A stretch of 64,000 nt of DNA from Mangifera indica (taxonomy: Eukaryota > Streptophyta > Magnoliopsida > Sapindales > Anacardiaceae): the NCBI RefSeq assembly GCF_011075055.1, contig NC_058149.1:15382449-15446448 (forward strand). The letters are read 5' to 3'. Made by a program: the position numbers and the translations under genes. This document shows, one piece after another, positions 612-46,800 of the stretch. How positions within the stretch are numbered: the stretch's first letter is position 1; each line of letters begins with the position of its first letter. The notes under the pieces were generated by a model, which saw only the letters and a program-made list of their open reading frames with translations, did no database searches and had not been told where the DNA came from.

Positions 612-1270
612 TTCAAAATTTATCTACAAAGTTTGTATGGAACAAATTGTTTACTGGAACTGATTTTGTGTCCTGGCTTCTCACATCTTCAGGATAGTCC
701 TCGTATAAGGAGTCAGTGTTAGAAGGTATTTCAATCTTCTTTTTCTTTACAGCTGCCACAACAACTTGGCAGATGTGGACAATGGGACTTCCTGAGCATT
801 TCTTGTATCTGTATCCTTGAGTTCCTGATAAAATATCACTATAGCAATAAACATTGAAATAGAACAAATTTCGTAACCCCAGCTTCGACCAATTTCATCT
901 TGAATGTATACGAGCACTGTAAAAGCCATTAAAGTCCCTGTAATAATTACAAAGAAGAACCTACTAAATAAGTAGGCCATTTGCATCCTTTCCTTTTCAT
1001 CTTTCTCAATCTTTCTCATCAAACTGATCGGTTCCAAATCCTGAAACACTTGATTTTAGGCCACCAGTCCCCAGTGCAATTAGATACAAGGCAAGATATA
1101 AAATTCACATTTGAAATCCGCTAGCTCATTGGCATTGAGTAACTTGGGCAACATGGCAAGGAGGGGGCTGCAGCTTTGGCAACTTCGTTGATATAGCCAA
1201 TAAGCTAGTCCCCTGATTTTTGCATTATCATATCACTTACTGTAATAAAAAGGAAAAAAGTACAAATATA

Positions 1271-1876
1271 TGATAGGTTCCTGGAGATAAGCTAGACTTG
1301 CACTGCCGAACACCTAGAAATGCTCTGCAATCAACCCTCCTACTGCCGCCAGAGAAGTTTGCTCGCTGTGAAACTTGTTGAAAAATTATATTGTATTTGG
1401 GAATGTAATGCACTGTAAAATAAAGTTTTTAAGTACTCAACAAATCCAATGTTTATATAAAGATATTGTATTGATTATAACTCAGAATATCAATATAAGA
1501 GTTTTACAATAAACTCTCTATTCCATCACACTTCTAGCATATGAAACCCAAGAAAATAACATAGAAAAACCCATAAAATGTTCAATGAAACTCAAAAAAC
1601 ACTGCAGTAATAGAAGTTGAAAATCTCTCCCAAATGGCCTAGCTTTCGAGAGGCTAGGTGTTCTCCTTCTCAGTCGAAACTGTCTACTCTTTTCCTGAAA
1701 AATCTCTCCCTCTTCTCACGTTCTTTTCTTTTATTTTTATACCCCTTTCTCCTCTAACTACCCTTGATTTTATTTGCCACGTGTCTGCATTTTCACAATG
1801 GTCCAACCTCTGTCTTGCTTTTGTGTTTTCCTCTCTGTCTTGTTTTTGTGCCCTGCCATTATATGAAGTCTTAACA
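1271..1876 (-). repeat. 3' LTR (left copy)
   Basis: 606 bp, aligned by eye over its whole length with 4562-5184. Differences are scattered substitutions plus a small insertion in the other copy (the extra GTGTGCCTTGGTTTTGT near 5141). The two LTRs therefore differ by a few percent, so the insertion is not very recent. Confidence 0.93.
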
Positions 1877-1938
1877 ATACCTCGCCCAACGAGAATCACC
1901 TTGTCCTCAAGGTGAAAGGTTGGATACTTCACTTTCAT
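1877..1938 (-). pseudogene. Possible end of a gypsy-type integrase ORF next to the 3' LTR
   Basis: The minus strand reads PTFHLEDKVILVGRGI directly before the 3' LTR. Many plant Ty3/gypsy polyproteins end with a LEDKV-like tail just before the polypurine tract. The GGGCGAGG immediately next to the LTR may be a damaged polypurine tract. The match is short. Confidence 0.4.
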
Positions 1939-1980
1939 TGCTACAAAACTCTCTAGAGCGATTTCAAAGGGAAGTAGGTT

Positions 1981-3177
1981 CTACCTTTTGATAAAAAAAT
2001 TCTCGCAATTAGTAAGCACAATAGGTACTTCTGCAGGAGATATATGGTTAATGGTTATGTTGTCACCAAAGTTGAGTAAGTAGCGAGCATCTTTGACTCC
2101 ATAAGGGCCTAGTGGATCAATAGTCATGTTCTTGAAATATGGGGACTTGTGAATGCAAGTCGAGTTTGGATCCCAGGAGTAAAGAGTTGAAGTGGGAATA
2201 GAAAGCTCAGTCCACATAGGGTTCCCCTTTCTAGTTGCCTCGAAAGTACTCTTGAACATATCAGATGACATATTAGATTGAACAACCTTAGCAATTTGTT
2301 CATTAGTAGGCCATATATCCTTAAAGTACACATTCCTTCCATCTTTCCTAGCTCCAATTGGCTCATTCTCGAAGTTGATGTCAATTGTGCTAGCAAGAGC
2401 ATAAGCAACAACAGAAAGCACAGTTGCCACACCAATGTCTTTTTTCGAAATTGCAACACCAATTGATTCATCAATTTCAACAAAATTTTCAATACACGTT
2501 GTGCAGCCATAACCAATCTGGAGCAAATAATTTTTAACAACACTAAAGCCCGACGCAAGACTTGTTTTGACGCAACAGTTGACCTCTAGACCTAGTTCAC
2601 AAGTCTTTTTAGCAATAAGACCAACCGCAGGCATGAGACTAGGGTTTGAAGCATTGGCACAGTTGGTCATGGCTGCGATAACAACACTACCATGCTTAAG
2701 TTCAACAAGCCGTTGCTTGGGTATGTTAAAACTCTTGGCAAACCAGTCTCTAAAGCCTCCACTTCCATACTTGGCTCCAACAAGGACAATCGTATCTTGC
2801 CCAATGGACTTGTACCTCATTGCCATATTAAAAACATGAAGTTTCTCTCTTGTGGAAATATGAATTGTTTTTGGACCGACTTCTCCATTTAAGAGCTTGT
2901 TAACAAGACAAATATTGGCGACGGTTCCTTTGGCCATCACTTCATCATTGCCTCGACAACTACCATAAGAATTGAAGTCTTTGCAATCCACTCCATGCTC
3001 AAGCAGATACTTTACAGTAGGGCTGTCATTGTAGATACTTTCAAAAGGAGATAAAAATGCCACAATTCCCCAACCTTCGCTAATTTCGCTTAAGTCACGA
3101 ATGATTTCACATGAGATGTTCATGTCAAACTCTTGCTTAAATCCAAAACACTTGGATTTTCCTTCTCCCCCCTTCAC
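1981..3177 (-). CDS. Chimeric ORF: poly(A)-binding-protein RRM piece fused to a segment-swapped aconitase fragment (398 aa)
   Basis: An open, intronless frame inside the retrotransposon, in the element's sense. Residues 1-13 carry GKSKCFGF, the RNP1 motif of plant PABP RRM3; LKKVFGEH can be read further upstream to about 3224, behind a TAG. Residues about 14-46 (SCEIIRDLS, then GIVAF) resemble PABP RRM4. Residues about 48-149 match the aconitase region with [39 protein letters not shown] and YGSG-FRDW. Residues about 150-383 match the preceding aconitase region: VVIAAMTNC (Fe-S Cys173), KTSLASG, GYGCTTC (Cys225, Cys228), WDPNST and [14 protein letters not shown]. In normal aconitase the second block comes first. 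Two internal deletions (before GYGCTTC and after ATVLS) remove conserved sequence, and the N-terminal third is absent. A working enzyme is very unlikely. The lack of introns, against a many-exon plant aconitase gene, points to capture from mRNA. Confidence 0.85.
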
Positions 3178-3224
3178 AATGGCACTAGCAATTGTGTCAT
3201 GCTCACCAAAAACTTTCTTAAGCT

Positions 3225-4051
3225 ATTCACATTTGGAATACAGACAAGATTGGTTTGTGTGTGTTTGTTTGTCACATCGGAAACGGAGACCTTGTGTAAT
3301 TTTAGATGGAATTTCTGAAAGAGAAAGGTGTTTGAGACTACTAGGTTGAGAAGATGGTCGATTTCTAGAGCTGTGGTGGTTGGCGTTTGGAAGTCTAGCT
3401 AACAAGTTATTATGTTGTAGTCGTTGTTGTTGGGTGAAGGAATTGCTAGTGCTGAAATGTAACTGCTAGACTGGTGAAGAAAAAGAAGTCCACAGGTTAT
3501 GTGAGGGGAGATTATGGGTTTGGGGTGGTTGGATATTGGTGGATAAGTTAATGGATTTGAGATCTCATGTGAGAGGTTGTGGGTTGTAGTTGTGATTATA
3601 AGTGGGATGGGTTCCAACTATAGGCTTGATTAGTGGTTTGTTAGTAGGCTAGATTTGGGTTGTGGTTGTTTGAGCTGGGTTATGTAAATTTGGTTGTTGT
3701 TGGGGTGAAAAGAAGGTGTGGGTGGGGAAAATTTTATAGCTTGGGCAACATTTTTTTAAGCTTAATTTAGTTGGATTTTGGGTTTTTAAATTTGAGTTTT
3801 TGTGGAGTAAGATTTTGGGTTAGAATATGGATTCTTTTAAATATAAAATATGTGTTAGGCTTGTGGAAAAGCAACTGGAAATAGAGTGGGTGAATGTACA
3901 ACAAACACTTGAGGCTGGGTCATATATTTTGGTTTGGTTAATGGGGTGATTAATAAAAAATGAAAGTTGGGTTGGGTTTGATTTGTGAAAACTAAAGTTG
4001 AGTTTATATTAAAATTGGTTTGAGTTTGAATTAAGTGATAGGACTTTTGGG
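3225..4051. other. Internal TTGG/GTTG-rich stretch of the retrotransposon
   Basis: On the plus strand this stretch is strikingly T- and G-rich (runs of TTGGGTT and GTTGTTG). No protein similarity was seen on either strand. It separates the leader ORF from the chimeric ORF. Confidence 0.5.
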
Positions 4052-4531
4052 CTAGGTTGGGTTTCTAATTCTCACTTTTTCTTCTTCCTTTCTTTTCTTC
4101 ACGCCTCCCACACTGCTTTTCATCTCTTTTGATTGGAAAGCATGAAGGTTAAGCAGGGGAGTTGATTCAAGTGGCCGGACTTTGTCAAAGCCAACCAAAC
4201 CCCCATCGGACTGTACTATCTCCACCAGATCAACCTTGATTTTGCTGAAGATTGCTTCAAAATACCTGGATATTGATGCCCCTCTGTCAAAATCTCCCAT
4301 CTCAATTGACCCATCTTTCTTGTTCTTTGTTTCCCTATTGGTTTCCTCTTTTTGGACTGTTGTTGGTGGTCCAAGCTCTCTCAAATGCTCCTGCAGTTTA
4401 ATTGTAGAAGAGAGACCCAACTTTTGAGCAATCCAAAAAGCGTCTTCAAAAATCTCTCTCCAGCTTTTGTTCATGTCTCTACTTTTATTTGCCATGTTTC
4501 TGTTTTCTGATTCCATTTCTCCCAATTCCAA
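4052..4531 (-). CDS. Leader ORF of the retrotransposon, 159 aa, function unknown
   Basis: The ATG at 4531 lies 17 bases downstream of the primer-binding site, where gag is expected. The product is hydrophilic and rich in Lys and Glu (for example KSWREIFEDAFWIAQKLGL, then a KKRKEEEKVR tail). I do not recognise a gag zinc knuckle or capsid motif. It may be a degenerate gag N-terminus or element-specific sequence. An uninterrupted 159 codons at this position argues for coding, but similarity evidence is lacking. Confidence 0.4.
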   Translation of the reverse strand: MELGEMESENRNMANKSRDMNKSWREIFEDAFWIAQKLGLSSTIKLQEHLRELGPPTTVQKEETNRETKNKKDGSIEMGDFDRGASISRYFEAIFSKIKVDLVEIVQSDGGLVGFDKVRPLESTPLLNLHAFQSKEMKSSVGGVKKRKEEEKVRIRNPT

Positions 4532-4547
4532 ATTTATCCAGGAATGT

Positions 4548-4559
4548 GCTCTGATACCA
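4548..4559 (-). other. Primer-binding site (tRNA-iMet)
   Basis: The minus strand reads TGGTATCAGAGC two bases inside the 5' LTR. This is the standard plant retrotransposon complement to the 3' end of initiator methionine tRNA. It fixes the element's orientation. Confidence 0.92.
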
Positions 4560-4561
4560 TT

Positions 4562-5184
4562 TGATAGGTTCCTAGAGATAAGCTAGACTTACACTACTGA
4601 ATACTTAGAAATGTTCTGCAATCAACCCTCCTATTGCCCCCAGAGAAGTTTGCTCGCTGTGAAACTTACTGGAAAATTATATTGTATTTGGAAATGTAAT
4701 GCACTGTAAAATGAAGTTTTTAAGTACTTAAGAAATCCATTGTTTAGATAAAGATATTGTATTGATTATAACTCAGAATATCAATAAAAGAGTTTTTACA
4801 ATGAACTCTTTATTCCATCACACTTCTAGCATATGAAACCCAAGAAAATAACATTAAAAAACCCATAAAATGTTCAATGAAACTCAAAAAACATTGCAAT
4901 AATGGAGTTGGAAATCTCTCCCAAATGGCCTAGCTTTCGAGAGGCTAGGTGCTCTCCTTCTCAGTCGAAGCTGCCTACTATTTCCCTGAAAAACCTCCCC
5001 CCTTCTCACCTTCTTTTATTATATTTTTATACCCTTTTCTCCTCTAACTACCCTTGATTTTATTCGTCACGTGTCTGCATTTTCACAATAGTCCAACCTC
5101 TGCCTTGTTTTTGTGTCTTCCTCTTTGTCTTGCTTTTGTGGTGTGCCTTGGTTTTGTGCCCTGCCATTATATGAGGTCCTAACA
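4562..5184 (-). repeat. 5' LTR (right copy)
   Basis: 623 bp, starting TGATAGG and ending CTAACA on the plus strand. Transcription of the element should start inside it and run leftwards through 4531-1981. It is followed by ATATA, the right target duplication. Confidence 0.93.
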
Positions 5185-5843
5185 ATATAAAATTAAAACC
5201 ACAAGAGAGAAGAATTACAAACTTACAAGAGTCTAGACAGTGGCAAATATTGCAATTGTTTTGTATCTACCTAAAAAGGAGTCAGCAAGGAAGCCACCCA
5301 ATAAACATAGCATAAATGAGGTACCCATGAAGTCTGTAACTATATCTGCAGAAGTAGCACTTGAAAGATGCATTGTTCCACCCAAAAATGTCACAAGGTT
5401 CACTACTATTCCCATTGTTGAGGGTCTCTCGCATCTCTCAACACCTGGATAAAAGGTATAATGGTTTAGTATATTAAAATTGCTTTGCTATCCAGTGCAT
5501 ATATAGAACATAGTCTGTGGCAACTTTTCCTTTTGAGGAAAAAGTTCTTCAGCATTGATTTTTATTCACAATTAAATTAAAAAATAAGTTTAAAACTCAT
5601 AACTTGAACAAAGCTTTTCACTTAAACATTAGTTTCAGAATTCATGATGGAAATGATTTACTAGGAATGAAGCCTTTCACTTAAACATTAGTTTCAGAAT
5701 TTGTGATTGAAATGATTAACTAAGAAGTTTCATATCATACCTAAGCTAAGAGCAGCAGGAACTTAACCACCAGAGTTAGACCTGTCAGCAGGATTTCCCT
5801 TGTAGTCTACTGCACTGGCAACATACCAACTCTTCATCTGATC

Positions 5844-8204
5844 CTGTTAACATAATCAATATGTGCATTTCTATTTGTCAGTGATCATCAAAATAATATT
5901 TATGGCTATAATAAGGAGACTCCATAGACCATGAAAATAACTTGAAAAATAAGAAACTAAATAGACTAGAGACACCAGCCATATTTTGCAAAACTCAGAT
6001 GGAGAAGAGCTTAAATAGAGATTAGAATAGGAACAAAATGGGAAACTGAGATGTTTTGGTACTCAAATGGCTCTAATTTATAGGCAAGGATAGAAGTGCT
6101 TTTCTCTTTACAGTGACCTCCACTAATATTTCTGACAGACCTCACTTTGTTACGGTAATGTTAAGGATTAGGTTTATCATATCCAATATAGGAGTTTTCT
6201 GAACTTGAATCTTCTTGCAATCTTTCCCTTTTTAAATATAATTTTATGGATATTCCATGCAAAAGTTGGATGTTGAAGGTGATGAAGAATCTTTGGAATA
6301 GAGACTGTGGCTAAAGTAAAAGAAATTCCAGGAATCACTATTCTTGACATATTTATATTTTATAGAAACTCATTCTGTTAGGATTAATTAAATTGGGCCT
6401 GAGAGCTGTGAAGGACATACAGAAACCACTCATTGTAAGTGGTTTTGCAGCTTTTGCTACCCACGAAAGCTAAAGCTACTAGCCTTGTATCTTTCTTCTG
6501 TTCCTTTGTACGGACAGAATCCATTATTCCTTCTCTTTAAGAAAGTCGCAGTGACTCAGTTGTGTGTGAAGATAATGAACACAGTATAATCCAAGATCTC
6601 AGGCAATGTTTTGGTCCTCACGAGTAGGCAACTTCAGCATATGATATGATTCAACAGTCCTCCCTTTAACTGTTGAGTAGACTGCTTCCCTATTAAAGCT
6701 AAGAAGCATTGACATCTCATCCACAACATCGTGTTGATCACTGAAGAGCCAGTTCCACTGAGGTCTTATTCATAAAAAAAGGTCTATATGAAGTGCTAAC
6801 CTCAGCCCTTTTAAAGTTCTACACTGTTAGATTGAAGAGGCTCCCTGACTGGGGCTGACTTTGATCTTTCAGTTAAGATATCATTGGAACCTGAAACAAG
6901 TATGGTGAACTTCACAATCAATTAGTCTTGCACAATTTGAGGTGAAAGTGAACCTCTACTACTACAAGGAACATTAGTTTTTATTAGACTATATATAAGC
7001 TCTGTTTATATATACACACACATTAATAATCATGCTTGTATGTTGCTACTGAAAAATCTTATAATGGACAAAGACAACAGGTTATTCTTATGATGGTCTA
7101 ATCCCTACTGAAAATGCACTTGTATGTTGCTACTGAAAAATCTTATAATGGACAAAGACAACAGGTTATTCTTATTAACATATAAACAGGGATTGGACAA
7201 AGACACACACATTATTAACCTCAATATTAAAATCCCTGTTTATATGTTAATAAATCTATATATAAGCTCTGTTTATCAATTCACACAGTTTAATAGTATC
7301 TCTAATCATGCTTTCTCCCTTTATGCTATGCATTATTCCAGTAATGCAGCTATTACCGAGAGAGCAAGAATTCAATCACATTATGTGTGAAAATAAAAAA
7401 ATGTTAGGCTTTTACCACACTAGGCCAAGTTCAAGATAAAGGCTTTCCTACATGATGTATATGTCTGGGCCGAGTGCGAACTCAGCTCCTTCAAGTGAAA
7501 ATAATTGCATATGTTGAGTTCAAAGTTGAAAGTGACAGAGATACGAATTCCAGTTGGCCCTTCTCAAAAGCAAAAGTCTAGTAACTTAAGCAATTTGAAT
7601 GCTATGCAGCCTGTTAAACATGAAGAATTACTCCACCGAACAGAAATTTTTTTATATATACACACACATTAATAAAAAAATCAAAGCAACTTGATCAGTA
7701 AAGCAACCATATATTCCAAGGATCCCTCTGCTACATGCAGATCCAGAGCCCAGAATTTGTTTGCTTTCTTCTAAAAACTGGAATTTATCACAACTTTTTC
7801 CTTTGATCATATTATTTTGCACCCATTAATCTCAAACTCGTATGGGATTATATATTGGCACGTGTATCATATTATAGAAGGCCCAATTCAGCCCAAGCAT
7901 AAGATAATAGTGTCGTAATCAAATAAAGGTCTTCATATGCATTAAGTAATTAAATAATTAAGCAAACATTATATAGAATATTTCAGACAAAAGATGATTA
8001 GGGCTCCCCACTTTATGAAATTATCCAATTTTTAAACATTATTGCCAAGGTCTCATGAAAGGAAGAACTTTTATTTCCTACTGTGGGAGAGGATGGTTTT
8101 TCCCCGAATCAAACAGATTGCTAGTAAGAAAAATGTGGTCCATGAACAATTGTTATATAATCAAACAAGTTTAATTTATTTACTTAAATGACATATGAAG
8201 TGAT
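5844..8204. other. Non-coding AT-rich DNA
   Basis: This lies upstream of the NPF remnant. A promoter and a first coding exon of that gene might be here, but I cannot pick them out. The only structured part is the local duplication and inverted repeat near 6980-7290, listed separately. Confidence 0.5.
6980..7290. repeat. Local duplication with a perfect 20-bp inverted repeat
   Basis: A segment starting CTTGTATGTTGCTACTGAAA occurs twice (near 7034 and 7110). TTAACATATAAACAGGGATT (7175-7194) is repeated exactly in inverse at 7231-7250 with a 36-base loop. The phrase TATATAAGCTCTGTTTAT occurs on both sides. This looks like local copying with inversion. Confidence 0.8.
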
Positions 8205-35224: not shown

Positions 35225-35786
35225 TGTTAATTTATTTATAATGCTAACATATATGTATATATTTTGGTTGGTCCAAGAATAATGCCTTAAAAGCATTACC
35301 AAACTAATTTAAAATCTCAAAAAATAAAATCAAAATCCCAACAGTCTTCACATTCACTTCCATCGCAAAACCTAACTCGTCCCAGCCTCCCCAGTGGCCG
35401 GCGAAGACAGCCGCCTGTCATTTTTTAGGCAAACTAAACTGTATTCTTTGAGAGAAAGTGAGCGTTTCAACTAACCCTTGTTCTTTCTTTTTCATTATTA
35501 CCTTTCTCTCCATTTTCACCTTCCTTCGTTTTCACCGCCTGTGCTTTCGGTGTCTTCAAACAAAACACTTGTTCAACGCATATTCAAGGAGAGCTTATTT
35601 TTCTCTTACCCATTTCGAGAAAAAAAAAAATTTTCTATCCGTCCGTTTGTGCAAAATCAAATATTTTCAGCAAAACTACTGTCTATCAGGTTGAACCTTT
35701 GAAAAACGTCATCTGGGTATTTGCTGAATTCTAAATAAAAGCTTATATCAGACGTGGTTTTTCTTGTTTCGTTAAATTTTCTTGTT
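35225..35786 (+). promoter_or_regulatory. Promoter and 5' leader region of the BT1-like gene
   Basis: About 560 bp between the MITE and the ATG. A pyrimidine-rich stretch (35478-35540) fits a 5' UTR. In-frame sequence upstream of the ATG is open for 11 codons but has no ATG. No clear TATA box was assigned. Confidence 0.4.
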
Positions 35787-38700
35787 ATGGGTAAGAGAGG
35801 AGGAATTCAACTGTTTGATGATAGAAGTGCAATCTGTGATTTGGCATCTCAATGGAATCTCAAAGACGATAACTTTCATTGTCAGTATCAACTGGGTGGC
35901 TTATTTGCAAGCGTGGGCCAAATGGGAGTAAATTTCGGTGTTTCTCCAAACTCGCCAAATCCTCATGACAGTAACAATGGCGGCATCAAATCTCCGTTGA
36001 CTGATTTGTATGTAAAGTACGTTACTTCAAAGGGTGGAGCTTGCATTATTGAGGTGCCGGAAGGTGAAACGACTATGAAGAAGAAGAAGGGTGGACTTAA
36101 ATTGAAAATTAAGATTGCAAATCCTTCATTGAGGCGGTTGTTTAGTGGAGCAATAGCTGGGGCTGTGTCAAGGACAGCTGTGGCTCCACTGGAGACTATA
36201 AGGACGCATTTGATGGTGGGGAGCAGTGGACATACAACTGGTGAGGTGTTCCATAATATAATGAAGACTGATGGGTGGAAGGGCTTGTTTAGGGGTAATT
36301 TGGTTAATATCATCCGTGTTGCGCCTAGCAAGGCTATTGAGGTAATGACTTCTACTGATTTTCTTTTTAATTAATAGATATTGATAGCCATATAGATAAA
36401 AACGTATGTATGATTGCTTAGAATCTTGATTTGTTTAGAAGTTGTTTTGATATGAGTGGGTTATTCTTTCCTATGGAATTTTCAAGTCTCAGTCTTTTCT
36501 TGTTCATGTTTAACAATACTATGGTTGAGAGTGAGGATCTTAAATGAGTTATTTGAGTTTTGCAACCCATTTTATTAATACGTTTCAATGATATCATTCT
36601 TTTTTCTTGTTTGTTCACCTAACTGAGAGTGTGAACATTGGATTGTTGGCTTCAGTAATTGAATTTCTTTTTTTCTCTTTCTGGTGTGGTTGATACGTAA
36701 TGCTTATGACTTATATTTATTTTTTTGTTCTATAAAGTTTAGCATGGGCGGCTCTTTTTAAACTTGCTTTGAGAATAACTGTCTAAGTTCAACTGAAAGA
36801 GTAAATTATTTGCACTGTATTTGAGAGTAAAAGTTTGCTAATTCAGAGGTTTGAAATGGTAGTTAAGTAAGTGTTCTCTTTAAGCTGTTATTTCTGTGCA
36901 TGTTGAACTTCAAAGCTTATTTAAAAAAAAAAAAAGTTGTCATTTAAAAAATTTTGTAATAAACATTTTATAAAACATTGTTTTCATTGGTGGAGCCTGG
37001 AGTCCATGTTGTTAAAGAAGTAGTGTGTAGCAAAGCAATAATTGGAAAATTTTCATTTGAAGCCAAAACTTGAGAATTTCTTGAAGAAAAATATAATACA
37101 TTATAGCAAAGTTATCCTTGAGTTTGACTTCAAAGGAAATATTTTTAAATGGTTATCCATGCATAGATTAAGAACTAGGTCCATCTACTCCTTTGAATCT
37201 AATTTCGGATTCACAAGTTGGGTATCTTAATAATATGAGAGTAAATGTTCAACTTCTTCCTAATGTATGTGAATGCTATGTGCTTCGTAAACTTACAATT
37301 TGGAAGGGATTCCTCTAGGCAATATAAATGAAGGTGAACTGAATTTATATCTAGTATTGTTTTTAAATATTATCAAGGGGTCTTCATGATTATGTTATTG
37401 GACTTATTAGAGTTGCATTGACCTTTGTCTTGTTCTTTTGTTGTGGGATAAGAAACTAAGTATATTCACGATAATCAGTTTTAGACTAGCACTATGCTTA
37501 TCTGCTCTCTACAGCCATGTAACAATAATACATAATGAACTAACAAAATGGATACTAACAGGTACTCTCAGTTGATGTGTCATCATCTAAGTGGGTCATT
37601 TTGAATTAGAAATAAAATAAATAATTAAATCACCATATCATATGATGACATATCAACATTTGTACTCATTTTATTGGTACATTTAGTATTACTCACCATG
37701 TAAATACATTTTATTGGTACATTTAGTATTACTCACCATGTAAATACAACTTTAAGACTTGCATTTTGCACCCAGTAATAAATTTTTTCAGCTAGTAGTA
37801 ACACTTTTAATCCCTGAATAAATTTTTAAGCTAGTATTAAAAATGGGGGAGAGAATAATGGAAGGTGGTTTCCTTATTATTGGCTTTGAAAATAGAAGAG
37901 TCTAGTTCTCAAATGAATTCTTCAATGCTATATCTGATCTGCCTGCATTTGAAGTTCAATGAAATATTCTCTGTTGCTGTGCGCCACATGTGGATATAAG
38001 GTGTCATTTTAAGGAGTTCAGAAATTCCATTTTCTACAGTTTTTAAACTTTGTACCCATTTAGTAGCAGAAATTTATTGCACATGACTTGCATCTAAGCC
38101 TATGTTTTACTCTCTACAGCTTTTTGCTTTCGATACGGTCAACAAGAAATTGTCAGCCAAACCTGGGGAACAGTCAAAAATTCCCATTCCTGCATCATTA
38201 ATTGCTGGGGCCTGTGCTGGAGTTAGCTCAACTTTATGCACATATCCTCTTGAGTTGGTCAAGACTCGTTTAACCATACAGGTACTCAAAACATAATTAG
38301 AAATCTAGACTTAATCTTGCAAATGACATTTATATGTAGGAGGTTTTGTAAATTTGCAGAGAGATGCATATGATGGTATCGTTGATGCATTCGTAAAAAT
38401 ACTGCAAGAAGAAGGCCCTGCAGAACTCTACAGAGGTCTTGCTCCCAGCCTAATTGGAGTAATTCCATATGCTGCCACCAATTACTTCGCTTATGATTCA
38501 TTAAGGAAAGCTTATAAGAAAGTAATCAAGCAAGAAAAAATTGGCAACATTGAGACCCTTTTAATTGGATCACTAGCAGGTGCTATATCAAGTAGTGCAA
38601 CTTTTCCTCTTGAAGTGGCTCGCAAGCACATGCAGGTTGGAGCAGTCAGTGGACAGGTATACAAGAATGTTATTCATGCACTCGCTAGCATTCTCGAGAA

Positions 38701-43844: not shown

Positions 43845-46800
43845 TCAGCAATTGATGCCACATTGACCATTTGCAGCAGATTTGGTGGAATTTGAGGTGA
43901 AGGGATCAATTCTCACCCAGAGCAAGCTGAAAATGGAGGCAAGAAGTATAGACCAGACAATGACGATGGTAGGTGTACGGTTTTGGCGACCCAACAAACC
44001 CTTCAAGAAAGGATAGAGATGGGCAATGACCCATATGGCAAAGAACAGCTTGCCAAATAGGGGACCCCATGATTGGTACCCACTGTTTATGGCATATGAT
44101 ACACCAGCAACAATACCCACCAGGTTCACAATAAGGACAGTAGTTGGGGGGATGAGAAGAGATGTCCATTTGAAAACATAAAGCTCTGCAAAGTCTCCAT
44201 CATCGTCAGATGCCTTTGAGGTAACAGTGAAGCTAGTATCAATACCTGCAAGCACTTTTAAAAGACCCTGGAAAACAGCAAACAGGTGCGCTGATGTACC
44301 ACCAATGACCCAGAACTGTTCGTTCCTCCACCAGTCCTCAATACCAACCCCACTCCACCGTAGCTCCAGTATTCCAGTAGCAAAAATGGAGACAAAAAGT
44401 AAAATAAACCACATGCTAGCAAAGTTGCTTATCTACAAAAAATGGTTGTGTCACAAATTAATTGGACAGGTAATATTCAGATACAATATTGAAAGAAAGC
44501 ACAAGTCAGTTGTAAGCCAATGTAAGCAAAAAAATCACTTACCTCCGGAATAATGAATTTTCCAGTAAGAAGGCAAAAAGCAGGAAGCATGCAGTAAGCA
44601 AGCAGTGGAATAGAGGTCAGGGGGTAGACAATGGTATTAATGTAAGCCAGTCTTTCCAAAAGCTTCAATCTTCCCTTGTAGCCATACCATATGGGGCAAT
44701 GCCGGCTCAGCAAAATCTCAATTGACCCCAAGGCCCATCGAAGAACTTGGTTCAATCGATCAGAAAGATTGATAGGAGCAGACCCCTTAAAAGCTGGACG
44801 GGGTGGCATGCAATAAATTGATATCCAACCACGAGCATGCATCTTGAACCCAGTTAAGATATCTTCTGTAACAGAACCATAGATCCATCCAATCTGGTAG
44901 TACACTTAGAGATTTATTAGTTAATAAAACATAGTTAAGACAATATCCAACTAAATCCCCAGTTGGCATGACACTAACCTCTTTGCCCCATTCAGTCTTG
45001 TCCTCATATCCACAACTTATAACATGGATTGCTTCTTTCAAAAGAGTCGCAGGATTAGTGGTTGGTGGTATGCCTCCCTGTTCCATGAAGGTGGCAGCAA
45101 TAAAAACTGGTGACTGACCAAAACGCTTCTCTAAGCTCTTCTGGGACATAAGAAGGGACCTCTCATCATCATATCCTGAAGAATGCAAGGAATACAGTTA
45201 AAAAAGTCAAATAGTATGGACTTCCCCTCAACCCTACTTGAGTTAACCAGCAACTTTTGTCAAATAAAAAGATAGAAAAGGCCCGAAGATACTCCGATAT
45301 ATTAAATTAATGGTCATTCAAACAAGGTTATTGATGGCTTGCAGTGCTAGCTTATTAAGAACCTACCTTCAACACCCTCTTCAATGTCTTCCATATTAAA
45401 AATTGGAACAGTAGATTCGGTTCTTTTCATTGCCCTCTTCTTGTCCATGTATTTCTTGTTAGAACCCTTTCCCTTCTTTCTTGAACCACAACATCCCTTG
45501 ATAATAATGTTTGGCTCCAAATCCTCTTCAGTTAAAACTGGATCATATCCATATAGAGCTTGTCTATTGAAACAACAACCAGTTCCCACATAGACTGGAC
45601 CCTGGATGCCATCAAGCCCCTTCAAGTTGATCTGACAAATAAAAGAAGAAGGGTGTGCTTAACAAGCCTAAGCCCAGTAACTACTACAATGAAATTAATT
45701 CATACTAGCAATCTGGCTAGAAATCCAAGTGGGACTTACATCAAAAAAAACAATATTGCGATTGGCATATCGATCATGAATATCAATGCCGTCAAAACGC
45801 TGTGGGAACTGTACATAGCAAGTTTTCTTTCCAAGTACAGGATCCATCATGAAACACATTGCCTCTCTAAGAGCTTTGCTGTTATTGAAGTAGTGATCAC
45901 AATCAACATTCAACAGATATGCACCATTGGTCAAGACAGCTGAAACTCGAATCTGCATTACAAGGTAAAACCTACCTGGTTAGTAAATAAGAAAGGCAAA
46001 AGAATTTGCACACAGCATGAGTTACAGAACTGACTGCGGCAACCGAAATGGGAAGAATTTATAAATAACTTGTAGTACATTATTAATAAATAACTTGATG
46101 AAATAAAACAAAATGTTTGAAGATCACAAACCAATGCATTCATAGCTCCAGCTTTCTTGTGGTGTTGGAAGCCAGGACGCTTCTCACGAGAAACATAAAC
46201 AAGACGAGGTAGCTCATTTCCATCAGTATCAAGCCCTCCACTGTGGCCTAAGAACACCTGTTCTCCACCAAAGAGAACCAGAACCAGAAAAAATGGAAAA
46301 TAAAATGATAAGAACACAACAGATAAAAAGGAAATTTTAAAGGTGATTTTTTTATGACACTTGGAAAGATGATAATACCTGAATCATTCCAGGATGATCC
46401 CTAGGATTATTACCGGGCCATGGAGTGCCATCCTGCATTGTCCAACCTTCTTCCGGCATCTTCTGAGCTTTTGCAACAAGGGCATTGATCTGCACCTTAA
46501 ACTCCTCATATTCTCTCTGCAAGGAATAAAAATTATCTGTTATTTATAACTCAAACAAGGGCAATGTAAAATCAAACCACTATAGCCATACATAGGTTTA
46601 TGTTAAATAATTAGAACAACACATCACAGTCAGAACTGTAGCTTTTATACACACATCACACAAATGCCTCACAAAACCTACTTTAACAGATCTGATATAT
46701 CTTTTTCCTACAGTATACAGGCTCAAACATTTATGATCTCTTTAGTCTTACCTCAAATACACTTAAAAATAAATATTGTATTTTCTTCCTTTCTCTTTAC

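Follow-up and report, generated by a model that had tools for sequence, protein, structure and literature searches.

A chimeric reading frame of poly(A)-binding protein and permuted aconitase pieces in a non-autonomous LTR retrotransposon of mango

The element and its surroundings

The window analysed here is a stretch of 64,000 nucleotides of the mango genome (C13:15382449-15446448, in an assembly of 391 Mb in 241 contigs). A complete LTR element occupies positions 1271-5184 of its minus strand, on which all parts of the element described below are read. It presents the hallmarks of LTR retrotransposons: a 5′ LTR (4562-5184, 623 nt) and a 3′ LTR (1271-1876, 606 nt) with TG...CA ends, identical at 556 of 604 aligned sites (K2P 0.085), two copies of the target-site duplication ATATA (1266-1270 and 5185-5189) and, adjoining the 5′ LTR and 2 nt inside it, a primer binding site TGGTATCAGAGC (4548-4559; GCTCTGATACCA on the plus strand), which we take to be of the iMet type. 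The longest frames are an N-terminal frame of 159 aa (4052-4531, hereafter the N-part) and a chimeric frame of 398 codons, the two being in different frames in the window. The N-part finds no counterpart in Pfam, in NCBIfam or among scored proteins, and in PDB it gave myoneurin at E 0.22. Neither a gag-pol region of its own nor a reverse transcriptase frame was found in the element, which is a member of a non-autonomous family of LTR retrotransposons. The internal region ends in a 3′ tail (1877-2022; frame ending FHLEDKVILVGRGIV) common to relatives without captured genes. Between the backbone and the chimera lies a segment (3223-3362) that resembles a putative gag zinc-knuckle region and shares about 59 nt with an element at C10:7116933-7121112; its assignment, like our reading of the tail motifs, is provisional.

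Exons of an NRT1.1-related gene lie on both sides of the element (5233-5415, residues 49-107, E 4e-23; 750-1049, residues 177-236, E 2e-17), which places the insertion inside an intron or close to one; element and gene have the same orientation. This NRT1.1/NPF-like gene looks broken, since stops and a frame change occur inside the homologous region at 740-1260 (minus strand). Elsewhere in the window, a 189-aa frame at 43845-44414 (minus strand) covers the C-terminal region of a cellulose synthase (E 8.7e-97 to Pfam Cellulose_synt) and a 206-aa frame at 35754-36374 (plus strand) has a domain of mitochondrial carriers (E 2e-19 to Pfam Mito_carr). Two short near-tandem duplications (5606-5723, 59 nt, 86%; 7035-7175, 57 nt, 100%) and a perfect inverted repeat of 23 nt (arms 7172-7194 and 7231-7253) were also observed.

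Composition of the chimeric frame

The chimeric frame (1981-3219) combines two pieces of poly(A)-binding protein (PABP), two aconitase segments and the element tail. The 398-codon ORF itself spans 1981-3177, and the frame remains open to 3219, with a stop at 3220-3222. In the direction of reading, the pieces are PABP RRM3 (3139-3229), PABP RRM4 (3040-3117), aconitase segment C (2731-3053) and aconitase segment B (2026-2733). The first-pass annotation, made from the sequence alone, had described an intronless 398-codon frame inside a complete LTR element and had read PABP and aconitase text in it; all of this was borne out by our analysis. The aconitase identity is unequivocal in direct searches (PDB phmmer, E 7e-76; Pfam Aconitase_C, 3.6e-14; Pfam Aconitase, 4.8e-8). 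Direct database support for PABP is weak but specific: the sole NCBIfam match of a 64-aa region is TIGR01628 PABP (E 0.0083) and the sole PDB match of a 29-aa piece is yeast Pab1 (E 0.044). The PABP region did not match Pfam RRM, a 63-aa version of it had no PDB match at E 1, the second PABP piece alone retrieved only an unrelated protein from PDB (E 0.92), and a protein search with residues 1-66 gave five candidates, none at E 10 or better. The identity is settled by PABP genes of the mango genome itself, those on C19 and C11, which match the RRM3 piece at 77-81% over 75-94 nt and the RRM4 piece at 67-71% over 63-70 nt. These genes need not be the direct source.

The aconitase segments match an aconitase gene on C18 exon block by exon block, at 83-93% identity, and its paralog on C1 at 81-92%. 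The element has none of the C18 gene's GT-AG introns and lacks the PABP intron after TGCAAG, so that the RRM4 piece crosses a parental exon junction without interruption. The absence of the introns of both relatives indicates that both sources were spliced RNAs. Intron-free fragments of at least two host genes thus reside within one LTR element, the arrangement typical of maize Bs1.

The aconitase text is permuted and not one colinear piece, a feature missed by the first-pass annotation: the 3′ part of the captured piece precedes the 5′ part. ORF residues 43-149 correspond to human IRP1 680-785, residues 157-255 to IRP1 420-532 and residues 255-382 to IRP1 555-682. In parental coordinates, segment C (nt 5594-6023) comes first and segment B (nt 4013 to 5611, minus introns) second. 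The 18 nt at parental 5594-5611 (TATCTCCTGCTGGAAGTA) match both the start of segment C and the end of segment B. At the outer join, CTCCT..TGAA is common to PABP and aconitase, and given this similarity the true overlap may be only about 4 nt. At the inner join, segment C ends with GCCAAGGGT and segment B begins with GGTTTTGCC, preceded in the spliced parent by GGATTCAAG; alignment of GCCAAGGGT with spliced GGATTCAAG followed by GGTTTT reveals the microhomology CAAGGG(T).

Three stretches, of 36, 42 and 69 nt, have been deleted within segment B (sizes counted from alignments). Exon skipping was considered for them and rejected, all three lying inside exons. The capture does not include the aconitase N-terminus (IRP1 1-419), the chimera has lost the GNRNFEGR segment, and in place of GSGSSRDW of aconitase it reads GSGGFRDW. 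The three cysteines that we take to be the Fe-S cysteines of aconitase are retained in the window copy. The first ATG of the frame comes after the RRM3 piece.

Copies, relatives and other captures

When the ORF was searched against protein sequences, 7441 of them scored at E 0.001. All 120 matches listed contain aconitase domains and none spans more than 69% of the query, which means that no further copy of the chimera is among those listed. In viral contigs, two pattern matches were obtained and neither was confirmed. A search of the mango genome for further copies, suggested in the first-pass annotation, recovered at least four near-complete copies of the chimera ORF (the window copy, C96, C34a and C34b), with no intron-sized insert across the ORF in any of the four. 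The flanks of C96 and of the window insertion are 97 and 99% identical, indicating that C96 represents either the second haplotype or a duplicated copy of the window insertion, and the flanks of C34a and C34b are 94% identical over 305 nt and 99% over 295 nt. From this sharing of flanks within each pair, the four copies represent two insertion events with the same joins. Their LTR K2P values are 0.085 (window), 0.0875, 0.140 and 0.114. The chimeric frame is open in only one of the four copies: among codons aligned to the window frame, the window copy has no stop, C96 has three and the C34 copies have two and six, with frameshifts that bring 22 and 24 stops if they are read straight on.

Shared changes were counted at sites where both host paralogs agree and where the change is present in all four copies. 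Among these 72 changes, 52 are nonsynonymous, 20 are synonymous and none is a stop, against a neutral expectation from the observed spectrum of 69% nonsynonymous, 28% synonymous and 3% stop, and they fall on codon positions 1, 2 and 3 in the numbers 23:26:23. Between the window copy and the C18 gene there are 136 changes over 958 sites (42, 41 and 53 at the three positions of 314 codons). Nei-Gojobori dN/dS between copies, a comparison that the first-pass annotation had also suggested, gives no sign of constraint: the values are 0.44-0.94 in the six copy pairs and 0.51 against C18, and the neutral value that we calculate under a transition-rich spectrum is about 0.7. The amino-acid sequence of the chimera is without detectable constraint and the chimera is not a conserved gene, a point that had escaped the first-pass annotation. 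For the N-part of the element (dN/dS 0.40-0.74 in 15 pairs), there is at most mild constraint.

We compared 10 related loci with the window element. Four of them (C20, C1a, C1b and C3) are free of captured genes at the corresponding site: their internal region runs straight into the 3′ tail, with about 20 nt standing where the window has 3361-2025. Similarity of these relatives to the LTR is confined to its first 265-270 nt, which makes them cousins and not the direct ancestor; LTR positions 271-611 were unmatched in all seven relatives tested (C20, C1a, C1b, C3, C4, C11 and C10b). In C3, a single frame of 577 codons, matching no Pfam family, runs from near the primer binding site through the N-part region into the 3′ LTR. 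The C10 element that shares the 59 nt beyond the backbone (L031, C10:7116500-7121500) is without host pieces and has a partly duplicated internal region, unrelated inserts and a truncated 3′ LTR. Five further loci (L057-L061) have one LTR match apiece and are solo-like, and L055 and L056 have partial matches only. No autonomous partner was recognized near the LTR matches on C6; the ORFs there, with 120-140 aa as the minimum length, have the look of a single, ordinary gene family. Loci L042, L043 and L053 (C6:854500-896900) carry recurring, similar single frames of 424-460 codons, and the one that was scanned is Pfam Chloroplast_duf (PF14476, E 3.7e-148); the position of these frames between matches to the LTR of the element suggests segmental duplication.

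The family also carries other host pieces, again missed by the first-pass annotation. Two of the 10 related loci (C4 and C11) contain a fragment of a PPR gene, the source of which is a PPR-DYW gene with a 905-codon frame in C1:4019500-4026000 (95-96% identity); the joins show the microhomologies CCACCGCAGC and about ACCCCA. In C4, one frame of 863 codons passes through backbone, PPR piece and tail. Shared changes in the PPR piece comprise 17 nonsynonymous and 12 synonymous changes and no stop, and part of them may belong to the side of the host gene. Another related element, C10b, carries, upstream of its PPR piece, pieces of two further host genes, presumably encoding PIE1-like and RBM25-like proteins. 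The closest match of the first is C1:22559399-22559933 (84%) and that of the second is C5:9908744-9909255, in two blocks (93 and 97%) that are 99 nt apart on C5; this spacer, presumably an intron, is absent in C10b. Both pieces recur at 94-95% identity in a locus on C2, a candidate element whose right end is out of frame with the tail. As judged from these matches, the element family has evidently taken up host messages more than once.

Origin of the chimera and comparison with known systems

We favour, at a probability of about 0.8, template switching during reverse transcription, by which PABP and aconitase mRNAs were captured and afterwards drifted neutrally. In an ancestor, the reverse transcriptase would have departed from the element RNA at a point within the internal region, copied first parts of a spliced aconitase mRNA and next parts of a spliced PABP mRNA, and then returned to the element RNA, the capture replacing about 20-23 nt of backbone. 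The chimera would later have reached at least two genomic sites and drifted neutrally. The proposal of the first-pass annotation that two unrelated mRNAs were captured by template switching is therewith supported by the intron-free fragments and their intron-bearing relatives, the LTRs and target-site duplication, the four capture-free relatives, the same joins at two insertion sites and the microhomologies of the PPR capture; against it, the capture-free relatives carry a different part of the LTR. The long frame, to which the first-pass annotation had attached importance, is indeed open in the window, but it is closed in the other three copies and shows no constraint, and in 3000 runs of a neutral simulation zero stops were obtained in 17, 10, 6 and 2% for 60, 80, 100 and 136 changes, respectively. 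The window frame is probably open by chance or through a weak requirement for translatability, and not through conservation of a protein.

Selection on the frame itself, host pieces being kept only if fused in frame to the element ORF, is a possibility to which we give limited credence, and the same tentative status applies to its rationale, namely that untranslatable transcripts would be degraded or left unpackaged. All eight joins or deletions in the aconitase lineage keep the frame (counting backbone to PABP as one), in a lineage picked for its long ORF; this hints at frame selection, a hint that the neutral reading does not need. In the captures found by their backbone, for which the ORF was not the criterion, six of seven joins or deletions are in frame (two in C4 and four in C10b, with C2 as comparison, the right end of C2 being out of frame), for a binomial P of about 0.007 at 1/3 each, a figure that rests on few independent events counted post hoc by ourselves. 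The single frames of C3 (577 codons) and C4 (863 codons, across backbone, PPR piece and tail) point in the same direction; on the other side stand the different frames of N-part and chimera in the window and the absence of stops in the window copy, which is not improbable under neutrality (0.02-0.17). Speculatively, the element could even spread as a one-frame unit that swaps host-protein modules into its own ORF, with five host genes, at least three capture lineages, mostly in-frame joins and one single-RNA, one-lap copy whose permuted footprint abuts on itself. If so, the family would be a natural record of a reverse transcriptase leaving and re-entering host mRNA.

For the permutation, our preferred reading, which we rate somewhat above even odds, is a backward jump on one linear RNA followed by run-off. 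Minus-strand synthesis would have moved onto the aconitase mRNA at about parental nt 5611, heading to its 5′ end, and at the CAAGGG(T) microhomology would have jumped back to the downstream CAAGGGT of the same RNA. Copying would then have continued to about nt 5594, where the template would have ended, the part already copied having been removed by RNase H, and synthesis would have switched to PABP at the CTCCTnnTGAA-like similarity. Such a run-off would place both outer breakpoints on the same 18 nt, a coincidence that we estimate at roughly 1/100 by chance, assuming an aconitase cDNA of about 2.7 kb. Against the backward jump, the first nucleotide of segment B is also the first of a parental exon (CAG|GGTTTTGCC), which this reading treats as coincidence. 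That exon start is what a circular RNA would explain: the exons from GFAIPK to KGPKLL, back-spliced and copied for one lap, would also yield coincident outer ends, and the same boundary is marked by deletions and insertions in plant gene models. However, segment C falls 12-15 nt short of the exon end CTTCTG|GTAGTT, and the inner join is without the 15 nt expected in the back-splice product of those exons, barring a second, later deletion that could hide them. As a single step, the jump at the microhomology, suffices for the join, a circular template appears improbable.

A functional new gene, as claimed for maize Bs1, could account for the long open frame, the in-frame joins and the three cysteines that we take to be Fe-S ligands. 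Against this stand the stops in three of the four copies (3, 2 and 6 in aligned codons), the even spread of shared changes over codon positions (23:26:23), the proportions 52:20:0 against the neutral 69:28:3, the uncaptured N-terminal part, deleted GNRNFEGR segment and altered GSGSSRDW motif, and a first ATG downstream of the RRM3 piece; we reject this explanation as very unlikely. Joining at the DNA level, by rearrangement of nested pseudogenes, is scarcely credible, having only the small deletions in its favour against the missing introns of the aconitase and PABP relatives over the captured stretches, the pieces in element sense between LTRs, the joins with short microhomology and the lack of an intron-sized insert over the ORF in four copies.

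To our knowledge, LTR elements of plants usually show gene capture as an end product only. In mango, a single genome contains elements in the captured state, relatives that are capture-free, host relatives with introns and alternative captures, with breakpoints readable to the nucleotide, which opens the order of template switches to testing. The permuted aconitase may be the fossil trace of a backward jump within a single molecule, with RNase H setting its limit; such a step is otherwise studied in vitro. In circRNA-derived pseudogenes, described originally in mouse, exon order is inverted relative to the gene, as here; the mango join differs in lying off the exon end and its carrier in being an LTR element. 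In retroviruses with gag-host fusions, host mRNA sits between remnants of the element's own frame, again as in mango, where the carrier is a plant LTR element, the decay is neutral and no cell-growth gene is involved.

The literature search found no report of aconitase capture by a retrotransposon, and neither the main text of PMC13317346 nor PMC3726574, in the parts considered, mentions a permuted capture. The maize Bs1 element, which contains pieces of ATPase, xylan endohydrolase and glucanase genes (PMC13317346), is the closest parallel in those parts, and had been named as a known parallel in the first-pass annotation. The parallel stands as regards fragments of unrelated host genes joined in one LTR element with a hybrid frame; it fails, on the published description considered here, for the permuted fragment with coincident ends, for the capture-free and differently loaded relatives surviving in the same genome, and for function, of which the mango chimera gives no sign. 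The mango element also resembles other LTR elements carrying host genes, many of which have decayed to pseudogenes in rice, and departs from the LTR captures in these published accounts by its permuted piece and by the differing captures in one backbone. With respect to these accounts, the transduction of several genes by plant LTR elements is already known, and what is new in mango is a permuted capture together with repeated, mostly in-frame captures within one family.
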